The notes below the pieces were generated by a model. That model was not told where the DNA came from and ran no database searches. It was given only the letters and a program-made list of their open reading frames with translations. A DNA stretch of 33,709 nucleotides from Lachnospiraceae bacterium. GTDB taxonomy: Bacteria; Bacillota; Clostridia; Lachnospirales; Lachnospiraceae. Below, piece by piece: positions 476 to 29,517 of the stretch; position 1 is the stretch's first letter, and every line of letters starts with the position of its first letter. Location of the stretch: assembly GCA_017622505.1 (NCBI GenBank), contig JAGAQZ010000039.1, positions 1-33,709 on the forward strand. The letters run 5' to 3'. A program made the position numbers and the translations under genes.

Positions 476-524
476 AAACAAGCTAAATCATAATCATTAA
501 CTTTATTGACTGCGAGGTGCAAAC

Positions 525-609
525 GGAGAGGGTGGGATTCGAACCCACGTGCCCTTGCGGACAAACGGTTTTCAAGACCGCCTCGTTATGACCACTTCGA
601 TACCTCTCC
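525..609 (-). tRNA. tRNA-Ser (anticodon TGA)
   Basis: The reverse strand gives an 85-nt class II tRNA. The acceptor arms GGAGAGG and CCTCTCC pair, the T arm has GGTTCGAATCC, and the long variable arm is typical of serine. The anticodon loop CTTGAAA gives TGA, reading UCA and other UCN codons. CCA is not encoded. It is the first gene of a two-tRNA transcript that starts at the strong promoter just upstream. A translated frame across it (483-668) is spurious. Confidence 0.95.
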
Positions 610-12787: not shown

Positions 12788-12808
12788 ATAAATATTCCAA
12801 AACATCGC

Positions 12809-12929
12809 TCTTCTTCCATCCAGACTTTACTGTCGGTTTCGGATTCTCACCGAATCGGCCGTTTGCACGGGTCGCGGACTTAAGTTGCCTATCACCGCCG
12901 GTAGGGAATTTCACCCAACCCTGAAGATC
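12809..12929 (-). ncRNA. FMN riboswitch (RFN element)
   Basis: The minus strand shows the conserved RFN blocks in order: ATCTTCAGGGTTGGGTGAAA, TTCCCTACCGGCGGTGAT, GTCCGCGACCC, GGCCGATTCGGTGAGAATCC, GACAGTAAAGTCTGGATGG and AAGAAGA, with the P1 helix formed by the two ends. It senses FMN and controls ribU by premature termination. Confidence 0.97.
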
Positions 12930-12947
12930 TATTTTATTTTCTACCTT

Positions 12948-26546: not shown

Positions 26547-26686
26547 TTTGTACATTTTGCTAAAATTTTGAAATTTTGGTCGATTTGACCGGATAAAAGA
26601 TAGCTTAGAATGTAGGTTTATTATAGCAATTTTAAATTAATGAAATCAAGAAAAAGGCGTCGACAAATTGTGACATTTATGAGGAC

Positions 26687-26839
26687 GCAAGGGGGGTGGG
26701 GGATTTCTATGTTCTCTGACACGCTTTCGCTCGGTTCATCTACGTAGCGGTGCTAAATTCGATGATTTGTAAACAAATCCTCTCATTAAGCACCGACGAG
26801 CTGAAACGGTCATCGAACAAAAGAAATCCCCGCCCTTGC
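26687..26839 (-). other. Long hairpin element A with a conserved core (candidate structured RNA or mobile palindrome)
   Basis: On the minus strand the element folds as one long hairpin. The outer arms at 26822-26839 and 26687-26708 (GCAAGGG..GGGGATTTCT type) pair with a 4-nt bulge. The inner helix CGGTGC (26790-26795)/GCACCG (26748-26753) and the apical helix GATTTG/CAAATC with loop TTTA follow. Its core matches element B on the plus strand: 24/30 without a gap (26721-26750 against 27881-27910) and 22/31 with one gap (26787-26817 against 27823-27854). It lies 24 nt past the lipoprotein stop. It has no T-run after the outer stem and no open frame. Confidence 0.7.
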
Positions 26840-26863
26840 TGTGCTATGAATGAATTTCAATAT

Positions 26864-27610
26864 TTATCTTGACATTTGATTAGCATGCTCATTAACAAGG
26901 TCTTTCATATCATTTATAATTTCTGTGCGAACACCACTAGTATGCATCTCAGTATCATACACAATAAGATCGTTCACAACAACGCCTGATGCAATATATT
27001 GTAAAGATAACAAACCAGATCCTTCTAATCTTTCATCGTCGCAATTAAAAGTTAAATATTCATCAAAAAACAATTCTTCAGGCACAACCAATGAACCATT
27101 ACCATAAATGTAATTACTATCTTTCAAATAATTGCTAAAATTATACATTAACTCATCTACGCTACCAAAATGTTCATTTACTAATGCATTAAATTCAGAT
27201 GGTTCCATATATGAACAATTTAATACTAAAAGTCCAGCTAAATTTTCTCTATTAATATCTTCAGCATATTCAACATCAGTAACTCTAATTTCTTCCATTC
27301 TAGCCATAATTTGAACTGCTGTTACTGTTTCTGGAACTATTACTTCATCTTCTCCTACTTCTAATTTTGCAGGCATTTCAGAGGCAATTCTTTCCTCTAA
27401 TGTCATTTCTTCCACTACTTCTTCAGAAACTTCATTTTCTGATACTTCGTTTTCAGATACTTCGCCATCCGAAAGACTTTCTTCCGAAGAACTAACAGTC
27501 CCCGCCTCCGGATTCTGACTTGCTTCATCTTCATTTGTATGTGCATTACAGCCTGTCAACATTGCTAGACTCATAGCAACCACCAGCATCATCACCAATA
27601 ACTTTTTCAT
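26864..27610 (-). CDS. Predicted lipoprotein of unknown function
   Basis: This 248-residue lipoprotein has a lipid-attachment signal (hydrophobic residues 4-18, lipobox LTGC with Cys21). An acidic Ser/Glu-rich linker follows, containing tandem SENEV repeats around residue 50. A soluble domain of about 160 residues begins near EVGEDEVIVPETVTAVQI. It has no motif I recognise. RBS CAGGAGG precedes ATG 27610, and TATAAT lies at 27642-27647 on the minus strand. The coding sequence looks more AT-rich (many ATT, AAT, TTA) than its neighbours. Hairpin elements A and B flank it in opposite orientation. These features suggest it may have been acquired together with the elements, but that is an inference. 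Confidence 0.82.
   Translation of the reverse strand: MKKLLVMMLVVAMSLAMLTGCNAHTNEDEASQNPEAGTVSSSEESLSDGEVSENEVSENEVSEEVVEEMTLEERIASEMPAKLEVGEDEVIVPETVTAVQIMARMEEIRVTDVEYAEDINRENLAGLLVLNCSYMEPSEFNALVNEHFGSVDELMYNFSNYLKDSNYIYGNGSLVVPEELFFDEYLTFNCDDERLEGSGLLSLQYIASGVVVNDLIVYDTEMHTSGVRTEIINDMKDLVNEHANQMSR
27428..27473 (-). repeat. Short tandem repeat coding SENEV units in the lipoprotein
   Basis: Repeats of roughly 15 nt (TCTGAAAACGAAGTA-like) encode the acidic Ser-Glu-Asn-Glu-Val run in the linker. Such repeats can change length by slippage. Confidence 0.55.
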
Positions 27611-27641
27611 CTTTTTTCCTCCTGTATTTTAAGATGAAAGA

Positions 27642-27647
27642 ATTATA
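27642..27647 (-). promoter_or_regulatory. -10 element of the lipoprotein gene
   Basis: On the minus strand TATAAT lies about 32 nt before the start codon. The -35 region (TCTTGT at 17 nt) is poor. Confidence 0.45.
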
Positions 27648-27755
27648 CTACATTCGTACCCCCCACAAGAGTTTTCTGTATCCTTTTCATATATTTGATA
27701 TTTAGAACTTTTTGTTTCACACAACAACATTATGTCTTCATTTCTCACCTTATGA

Positions 27756-27990
27756 ATGTGGGACGAGAACGAAATAAATGTTGCCATATACGTAAATTAC
27801 CCACGCAAATGGATAACTGCAATTCGAAGGGTGTTTTGTACTCGCCGGTACTTAGGTTGTGTTCTTTACAACCTTATGTACCGCTGCGTAGGACAACCAA
27901 GCGGAAGCGTCCCTAAGAATGCAGATATCCATTCGCGTGGCCATCTATATTCCTTTGCAACATTTATTTCGTCCCCTCCCACATTTTTTC
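27756..27990 (+). ncRNA. Long hairpin element B with conserved core and T-run (candidate structured RNA)
   Basis: Outer arms at 27756-27784 and 27957-27984 pair over 8 plus 15 perfect bp with a small internal loop, and the 3' arm is followed by TTTTTTC. A second helix (27801-27821 with 27920-27940) pairs 19 of 21. Inner CGGTAC (27846-27851)/GTACCG (27877-27882) and apical GGTTGT/ACAACC follow. The core blocks match element A (27881-27910 and 27823-27854). Helix sequences differ from A but stay paired. With a hairpin and T-run at the end, a plus-strand RNA of about 230 nt would stop here, 130 nt before the SPFH gene. I found no promoter. No known RNA family is recognised. Confidence 0.65.
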
Positions 27991-28011
27991 ATATATTGCC
28001 AAAAATAATCA

Positions 28012-28040
28012 TAGACTTTTATCAGAAAAAATTATATAAT
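28012..28040 (+). promoter_or_regulatory. Promoter of the SPFH module
   Basis: TAGACT (28012-28017) and TATAAT (28035-28040) are spaced 17 nt. The start would be near 28047, at a palindrome. Confidence 0.6.
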
Positions 28041-28046
28041 AGAAGC

Positions 28047-28064
28047 GAAGTGTATACACACTTC
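28047..28064 (+). promoter_or_regulatory. Palindrome at the SPFH start site
   Basis: GAAGTGT-ATAC-ACACTTC forms a 7-bp hairpin, and GTGTATACAC (28050-28059) is a perfect 10-bp palindrome. It lies at the predicted +1 and may be an operator or a 5' RNA stabiliser. Confidence 0.45.
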
Positions 28065-28119
28065 CTTTTACATACGCAAATAATCAAAAAGTAATAGACT
28101 TTTAGGAGGAAAATGTAAA

Positions 28120-29517
28120 ATGGGATTAATTAAATCAACTTTAAGTTCAATGGGCCAATCAGTAAAAGGCACTTTTGGCAACGTATTAGGCGGTGTCAGC
28201 AGCGGTGTTAACACAGTATTAGGCGATGTTGCTGCAAGAGAGTTCTTCTACTGCGACGCATTCCCCAACGATATCTTAATTCAGAAAGGTCGCAAGCGTG
28301 ACCAGAAGGGTAACAACAAGGGTAGCGACAATATTATCTCTAACGGTTCTGTTGTAATCGTTAACGAAGGCCAGTGTATGATTCTTGTAGATCAGGGTAA
28401 AATTACCGAAGTCTGCGCAGAACCCGGTGAATTCGTATATGATGCTTCTACCGAACCTTCTATCTTCTACGGAAACTTAGGCGAGAACATTAAGAACTCT
28501 TTCATTCAGCTTGGAAAGCGTATTTCTTTTGGTGGTGAAATCCCCAAGGATCAGCGCGTTTACTACGTAAACTTACTTGAAATCCGTAACAACCTTTGGG
28601 GTACAGCAGGAACCTTCCCCTTCTTCATTCATGATAAGGTAACAGGTTTCCAGGGTGATATCAACATTATGTGTAACGGTGAATTTACATATACAATCGT
28701 TGACCCCGTTCGTTTTTACACCTTCCACGCAGGTAACGTAAGAGACGAATTCAATAAGAAAGAAATTCACAGCATTCTTCGCTCTGAATTTATGACAGCA
28801 TTCCAGCCTGCTTTGGGAACCTTCTCAGAAGTTGGTTTACGTTACAGCCAGATTACTACTCTTACAGATAAATTAACAGACCAGTTAAACGTTCAGTTGT
28901 CTGAAAAATGGGGTGAGCTTCGTGGTATCAAGGTAGCTTCCGTTACCATCAACACCATCAAGGCTACTCCCGAAGACGAAGAAAGAATCAAGAAGTTCCA
29001 GGATGTTGCAGTTTACACCAACGTAAACATGGCAGCTGCTCGTATGGCTACTGCTCAGGCTAACGCTATGGAAGCTGCAGCAAGCAACGAAGCAACCGGA
29101 CCTATGATGGCTTTCGCAGGCATGAACATGGCACAGATGACAGGCGGTATGAATGCTAACAGCTTATTCGCTATGGGTCAGCAGCAGGCTCCTCAGGCTC
29201 CTGTACAGCCCGCAGGCGCAGTTGTTGGTGCAGCAGCTCCCGCAGGTTGGGCTTGCTCTTGCGGTACAGCAGGCAACACAGGTAAGTTCTGTATGAACTG
29301 TGGTCAGGCAAGACCTGTTCCTTCAGAAGGATGGACTTGTGCATGTGGTGCAGTAAATCAGGGTAAGTTCTGTCAGGAATGCGGTGCTAAGAAACCCGCA
29401 GGTGCTCCTCTTTACAAGTGTGACAAGTGTGGTTGGACACCCGAGGATCCTACAAATCCTCCTAAGTTCTGTCCTGAATGTGGCGACGTATTTGATGACA
29501 ATGATGTTCAGAAATAA
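28120..29517 (+). CDS. SPFH-domain protein with C-terminal zinc ribbons (YdjI-like)
   Basis: This 465-residue SPFH/stomatin-like protein resembles B. subtilis YdjI, part of the sigma-W pspA-ydjGHI membrane-stress operon. Residues 1-35 form a Gly/Ser-rich amphipathic start. The SPFH-like domain covers about 40-310, with VVIVNEGQCMILVDQGKI, GEFVYD and FGGEIPKDQRVYYVN. A Met/Ala-rich linker with AAARMATAQANAME leads to three C-terminal zinc ribbons: CSCGTAGNTGKFCMNCG, CACGAVNQGKFCQECG and CDKCGWTPEDPTNPPKFCPE. It lacks a membrane helix and would need partners for recruitment. Codon use is biased (GGT, AAC, AAG), which suggests high expression. An ATG-TAA minimal start-stop precedes the real start, 10 nt from AGGAGG. 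Confidence 0.9.
   Translation: MGLIKSTLSSMGQSVKGTFGNVLGGVSSGVNTVLGDVAAREFFYCDAFPNDILIQKGRKRDQKGNNKGSDNIISNGSVVIVNEGQCMILVDQGKITEVCAEPGEFVYDASTEPSIFYGNLGENIKNSFIQLGKRISFGGEIPKDQRVYYVNLLEIRNNLWGTAGTFPFFIHDKVTGFQGDINIMCNGEFTYTIVDPVRFYTFHAGNVRDEFNKKEIHSILRSEFMTAFQPALGTFSEVGLRYSQITTLTDKLTDQLNVQLSEKWGELRGIKVASVTINTIKATPEDEERIKKFQDVAVYTNVNMAAARMATAQANAMEAAASNEATGPMMAFAGMNMAQMTGGMNANSLFAMGQQQAPQAPVQPAGAVVGAAAPAGWACSCGTAGNTGKFCMNCGQARPVPSEGWTCACGAVNQGKFCQECGAKKPAGAPLYKCDKCGWTPEDPTNPPKFCPECGDVFDDNDVQK

Follow-up and report, generated by a model that had tools for sequence, protein, structure and literature searches.

Two long hairpins, A and B, flank a 248-aa gene in the stretch of DNA analyzed here (the window, 33,709 nucleotides of a Lachnospiraceae bacterium). 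A sequence-only reading of the locus had described them as relatives that keep their pairing with different sequences, and had proposed an undescribed RNA or palindromic mobile element. The question raised by this locus is what the two hairpins are and what keeps such unlike arms complementary.

The resemblance between A and B was examined again. In block 1 (26721-26750, minus, against 27881-27910, plus), a recount gave the same 24 identities in 30 positions as before, and block 2 (26787-26817 against 27823-27854) aligns, by eye, with the single gap previously claimed. The helices CGGTGC/GCACCG, CGGTAC/GTACCG, GATTTG/CAAATC and GGTTGT/ACAACC are all present in the sequence. Relative to 200 dinucleotide shuffles, the minimum free energy of folding had z scores of −8.2 (minus strand) and −6.6 (plus) for A, and of −10.2 (plus) and −12.0 (minus) for B. 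Both hairpins are found by covariance model R1, whose alignment contains them. Hence, A and B are related hairpins with a common core.

Judged by eye, the extents of both hairpins (Table 1) exceed those quoted earlier. A is located downstream of the stop codon of the 248-aa gene, in sense orientation, and B upstream of its start. B is crossed by a mechanical frame of 112 aa (27756-28094, plus), which does not in itself indicate a gene. Terminal repeats are not defined at A or B, and no target duplication is evident there by eye. Elsewhere in the window, an FMN riboswitch is found at 12804-12932 (minus; Rfam RF00050, 116.6 bits), and two adjacent tRNA genes lie at 387-475 and 524-609 (minus).

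Table 1. Features of elements A and B and of neighboring genes, in window coordinates.
Feature	Position	Strand	Remarks
Element A, whole hairpin	26683..26843	minus	Clearly paired extent, ends by eye; A-like subfamily
Element A, covariance-model match (core and inner arms)	26701..26825	minus	R1, 82 bits
Element A, GNRA hairpin GC-GAAA-GC	26723..26730	minus	
Element B, whole hairpin and outer inverted repeat	27754..27986	plus	Ends by eye; B-like subfamily
Element B, covariance-model match (core and inner arms)	27815..27930	plus	R1, 119.6 bits
Element B, P3 and apical helix, CGGTAC..GTACCG with inner GGTTGT/ACAACC	27846..27883	plus	
Element B, GNRA hairpin GC-GGAA-GC	27901..27908	plus	
248-aa protein gene between A and B	26864..27610	minus	Without Pfam match
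SPFH/Band 7 protein gene, downstream of B	28120..29517	plus	

The sequence-only reading recognized no known family, and database searches agree with it. In Rfam 15, neither A nor B reached a gathering threshold, and relaxing the E value to 10 added nothing beyond chance-level hits; seven other loci had no match at E values up to 0.1. The region 26680-28000 had no match in a phage collection. A literature search returned no title or abstract describing the A/B family, a result that does not exclude a description. As detailed below, both hairpins are old copies within a large MITE-like family of Lachnospiraceae, whose core is RNA-like and conserved.

Copies, taxonomic range and mobility

A DNA search of the genome of origin with B yielded 17 matches, two of which were the arms of B folding back on each other; with the core of B alone, 15 places were found, including B and not A. 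Alignment A1, made of 33 cores (A and B among them), was used to build R1; L025 and L040 were omitted because of their poor cores, and L036 and L038 because they are near repeats. A second alignment of 55 cores, A3, gave rise to covariance model R2. R1 detected 58 places in the same genome at E ≤ 0.01 (57 in the genus search), A and B included. At the genus level, 27 of 31 genomes contained from 1 to 57 matches each and four contained none. With R2, scoring at most 8 candidates per genome, matches were found in 161 of 397 genomes of the family, belonging to 142 of 334 genera. A class-wide draw, in which matches per genome were likewise capped (at 8 or 9), produced matches in 11 of 391 genomes, all 11 from the same bacterial family; the 360 genomes of this draw without a match are unitemised. 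In a pattern scan of named genomes, the matches listed (80 of 116 stretches) carried Lachnospiraceae-type names (Lachnospiraceae, Agathobacter, Lachnoclostridium, Coprococcus comes) or the label Eubacteriaceae. The element family is thus restricted to one bacterial family within the sample. The many further copies that the sequence-only reading had named as support for it do exist, and a family of this reach and copy number has no Rfam match.

Young copies are units of ~175-225 bp (217-225 bp in the L071 group and ~178 bp in an Agathobacter MAG, from the spacing of terminal repeats). Self-complementary spans range from 140 to 246 bp, and there is no transposase gene inside. Observations relevant to mobility can be summarized as follows:

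(i). L071 and L100 arose by recent duplication of one unit, 218 and 217 bp long, respectively, that carries the terminal repeat GTCCCAATTCGC. In this repeat (GTCCCAATTCGCTTATTT), L100 carries two changes at one end; the terminal inverted repeats match at 18/18 positions in L071 and at 16/18 in L100. Two relatives have changed terminal repeats that are nonetheless 18/18 identical at both ends. The 8 bases that flank the unit on each side match at 8/8 positions in L071 and at 7/8 in L100, so that 2 of the 4 members of the group show an 8-bp target duplication; in the two relatives just mentioned, which are older, the flanks match at 3/8 and 1/8 positions, without target duplication.

(ii). The Agathobacter MAG (G822, 3.1 Mb) contains 321 terminal-repeat matches with at most 3 mismatches, compared with 0 in the control, which amounts to ~160 copies' worth. 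A target duplication of the same fixed length, 8 bp, matching in at least 7/8 positions was found in 8 of 36 copies (0.40 expected from mixed pairs) and was perfect in 6 (0.03 expected), while 28 copies had none at the fixed offset tested. The significance of these figures is somewhat overstated because seven fixed offsets were tried, the other six giving 0 or 1, and because a free-offset test had preceded them, with a weak outcome (11/36 at ≥8/9, 2.95 expected). Terminal repeats are not conserved over the whole family.

(iii). The flanks of 22 loci of the genome of origin were sought in two relatives. The element was absent from at least one relative in 9 of the 22, and nine copies had a model match at the orthologous locus of at least one relative; L101 and L116 belong to both groups. 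Overall, R1 gave 12 matches in 10 of 30 orthologue loci. Where the element is absent from L103, L116 and L122, the two flanks are joined almost directly and both arms are missing; many other empty-site joints are not clean. Locus L192 of G132 also has a clean empty site in G445, without either arm. In G444 the element is absent from L192 as well, and the right flank is different.

(iv). Recent copies take their arms with them to new sites, as seen in L071/L100, in the Agathobacter set and in a recent subfamily of G014 (L033, L035-L038), whose arms are nearly constant (GGAGCCGAGAGATTTG..CAAATCTAGGCGGCTCC). Two members of this subfamily, L035 and L036, seem to have a tandem repeat of the right end.

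Terminal repeats, 8-bp duplications and empty orthologous sites define the A/B family as MITE-like. Of the two natures considered by the sequence-only reading, the palindromic mobile element is therefore borne out. Duplications and terminal repeats with this pattern are the behavior of a transposon moved in trans. Some very short palindromes (L306:2141-2172, L314:842-872) consist of nothing but a pair of terminal-repeat tips, and may be relics of deletion.

The mobilizer was sought in several ways. In the four genomes searched, ISL3 transposase was represented by a single 36-position fragment in one genome, and IS256 transposase was absent. Two unpaired terminal-repeat matches in the genome of origin had, by eye, no evident transposase among the open frames listed. 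Among 28 Agathobacter MAG loci surveyed for an autonomous partner, one pair of tips 300-4000 bp apart was found, inside an unrelated gene. A larger partner element was accordingly rejected as a candidate in these searches. Autonomous partners of MITEs are often lost or located elsewhere.

Origin of the complementary arms

In 104 distinct copies, the arms form between 10 and 66 pairs, a range given without a control. Outside the ends of the model, 75 of the 104 have arms that pair with each other above the 95th percentile of a control in which arms of different copies were combined. Arm sequences mostly look unrelated between loci, and a further locus-specific inverted repeat is often seen by eye beyond an internal loop. 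Even in orthologues with well-conserved flanks, arms or inner helices can differ strongly with their pairing kept; in others (L190; L070/L128) the arms are retained. The sequence-only reading had taken complementary, unlike outer arms as a sign of selection on structure. This argument fails as it was made, because young copies show re-matched arms and, in one case, an inverted spacer.

In most copies of the Agathobacter set, the match between left and right arms is slightly imperfect. Two copies, L327+1701 and L304-6951, have a left arm that is exactly complementary to the right arm in its common form, and L304-6951 carries one further change matched in both arms. The opposite is found in L327+3285, where it is the right arm that complements the usual left arm, asymmetric part included. 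L296+2266 and L279-3585 have novel arm sequences that match on both sides. The direction of these changes is deduced from the majority form. In addition, the L196 orthologue of G445 has a 106-nt center inverted between conserved arms, with 98% identity, and the inverted core persists at this one locus. Re-matched arms and an inverted center are what DNA template switching would produce: homogenization of arms and inversion of the spacer are the two template-switching products named in PMC8604942, and PMC8794818 presents RNA hairpins as structures that can be created and maintained through template switching. Because this process can keep arms complementary without selection, complementary arms of unrelated sequence are not proof of selection for an RNA. 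Double changes also arise in this manner, which calls for caution when covariation is used as evidence of RNA.

An alternative possibility is that locus-specific arms are formed when the core inserts into hairpins already present, or when each insertion copies the flank of the target as an inverted arm. One could invoke in its favor the near-identical cores that lie within different complementary arms in G132, and also L216 in G445, where core and left arm are missing and the right-arm sequence is kept. L216 also fits a deletion between short direct repeats, however, and the empty sites mentioned above (L103, L116, L122, and L192 in G445) lack both arms; besides, the same arms travel to new sites. 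We consider this explanation very improbable, and the absence of both arms from several empty sites led to the rejection of target-templated arms as the main source. Positive selection on a hypervariable stem, considered for the G093 and G132 sets, was set aside as unneeded, not as disproved: some orthologues keep their arms (L190), and template switching together with core homogenization could explain the rest.

Other changes were seen at individual loci of relatives. The L222 orthologue of G445 has lost the apical core and retains the arms, an apparent deletion between short direct repeats. In G444, L211 and L223 have an altered left half of P2 (GTGGG) with no matching right half, which looks like conversion of part of the core from another copy.

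The core as a candidate RNA

The sequence-only reading had derived selection on structure from the arms, which by themselves do not show it. The case for an RNA function lies in the core. Its sense strand (plus in B, minus in A) keeps a branched, RNA-like fold over the central ~115-125 nt, made of P1a (4 pairs), P1b (2 pairs), a 2-pair side hairpin with a tetraloop, a P2/P3 rod and a variable apical hairpin. The apex separates an A-like subfamily (CUUAAYGAG..CGARUUUAG) from a B-like one (CUUAGG..CCUUAUG).

Covariation, measured against shuffles and slid controls that replaced R-scape, was above background and very strong in both alignments. In A1, 34 of 39 pairs change on both sides, and none of 500 shuffles reached the observed values in any of the five measures. 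In A3, both partners vary in one sequence or more for 33 of 36 pairs; covariation scored 0.549, compared with 0.191 in shuffles (reached by 0/500) and 0.105-0.129 in slid versions. These A3 figures are favored by the fact that pairs were picked on the same alignment used for scoring, and one of the five measures, the count of further pair types, was not beyond shuffles (34/500 reached it). None of the findings that the sequence-only reading had named as contrary to it (no copies, no covariation, an Rfam match) was thus obtained.

Loops and mismatches, counted in related copies that are not independent trials, were also informative. Among 125 distinct 3′ parts, 122 tetraloops fit the pattern G-N-N-A and three do not; the third base is a purine in all 122, which makes them GNRA loops, in eight versions. 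The pattern also holds for 35 of the 36 copies from Agathobacter. Where a mismatch in the arms is isolated, it is G-U on the sense strand in 55 cases and A-C in 26 (P 0.0017), while those beside other mismatches show no excess (15 and 14). In the core, G-U is found in 27 cases and A-C in 12, or 26 and 5 if three poorly aligned pairs are omitted; G-U is rare there (27 of 1523 cells). The purine at the third loop position and the excess of G-U over A-C point to RNA on the sense strand. Together with the conserved unpaired stretches, they make up the case for an RNA function of the core. Selection seems to be needed for the core, as template switching does not account for a constant GNRA loop or for conserved unpaired stretches.

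These observations admit more than one explanation. One is that the element acts as folded single-stranded DNA, with a transposase or recombinase recognizing a DNA hairpin (REP/attC-like) and no RNA function. Stems that are mostly Watson-Crick with few G-U pairs would suit such an element, and so would arms re-matched at the DNA level; DNA, too, forms stable C(GNNA)G loops. This explanation seems, however, improbable: the purine in 122 of 122 loops and the preponderance of G-U relative to A-C on a single strand point to RNA, and terminal repeats with 8-bp duplications point to duplex transposition.

The position of the element relative to genes was examined in 58 rows with genes on both sides, defined by crude longest-frame calls (four are repeats of a copy already included, and orthologues are among the rest). 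In 43 rows the gene downstream has the orientation opposite to that of the element, so that its 3′ end faces the element; the upstream gene is co-directional in 29, and the element lies between divergent genes in 4. Such a distribution agrees with tolerance of the element close to gene 3′ ends, and is no proof that the sense strand is transcribed. Close pairs in opposite orientation that point apart, like A and B, were observed in several instances (G000:C43 10987-/12475+, G019:C12 219063-/220441+, G000:C35 18135-/18515+, and others in G103:C15, G266:C29 and G349:C2).

Scarcity between divergent genes and proximity to gene 3′ ends might also be read, within the limits of crude gene calls, as the mark of a small RNA or RNA tail that benefits the host (for instance, a bidirectional terminator or a 3′-end protector) and is spread by recombination rather than being mainly selfish. 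A conserved core with a GNRA loop and covariation would be expected of it, and L190 and its relatives have identical cores within flanks that differ by several percent. What makes this reading unlikely is a copy number that varies from 0 to 57 within a genus, presence or absence between close relatives, ~160 copies' worth of terminal repeats in a single MAG, and target duplications.

Altogether, A and B are probably non-autonomous palindromic DNA transposons (MITE-like, ~140-250 bp), with arms shaped by template switching and a core selected as RNA. A transposase supplied in trans would cut at the terminal repeats. After insertion, a mutation in one arm would be copied into the other during replication, and arms would thereby drift toward unrelated yet complementary sequences. 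The core would be under selection as an RNA made by read-through of neighboring transcription; this RNA might shield or end transcripts at gene 3′ ends, or help the element itself. The question that this family poses is why an RNA fold with a side hairpin of GNRA type would be retained by a transposon too small to encode a transposase. A rather doubtful speculation is that the core is a functional RNA, either bound by a host protein or active by itself, which the element requires to spread or persist, as a bacterial SINE-like RNA parasite would. Equally speculative is the corollary that template switching would provide each copy of such a parasite with a private complementary stem.

Comparison with known mobile elements and hairpins

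HEARO, the IscB-associated RNA, is mobile, structured and multi-copy, and these traits are shared by the A/B family and by other mobile RNAs in Rfam. The difference is that no Rfam model credibly matches A or B.

Correia elements belong among prokaryotic MITEs, and to our knowledge the known MITEs lack copy-private complementary arms and a family-wide branched GNRA core. In the A/B family, in contrast, terminal repeats and arms vary by copy and stay complementary, and a branched core with a GNRA hairpin is conserved over a bacterial family. Likeness to prokaryotic MITEs, as presented in PMC10969869, resides in the short, non-coding sequence, terminal inverted repeats, target duplication, intergenic location, high copy number and prediction of a stable folded transcript. 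BOX, RUP, SPRITE, ERIC and QMITE2 are the repeats of this type found in that source, in whose text no word starts with lachnospir or clostridi.

Hairpins homogenized by template switching (PMC8794818, PMC8604942) have arm homogenization and spacer inversion in common with the elements described here. Unlike the cases found in those sources, switching occurs here in a dispersed mobile family of bacteria, with several cases in one genome. Its many loci can be viewed as parallel natural experiments, both on the reason for keeping the RNA fold and on how much covariation, the standard proof of RNA function, DNA template switching alone can produce.
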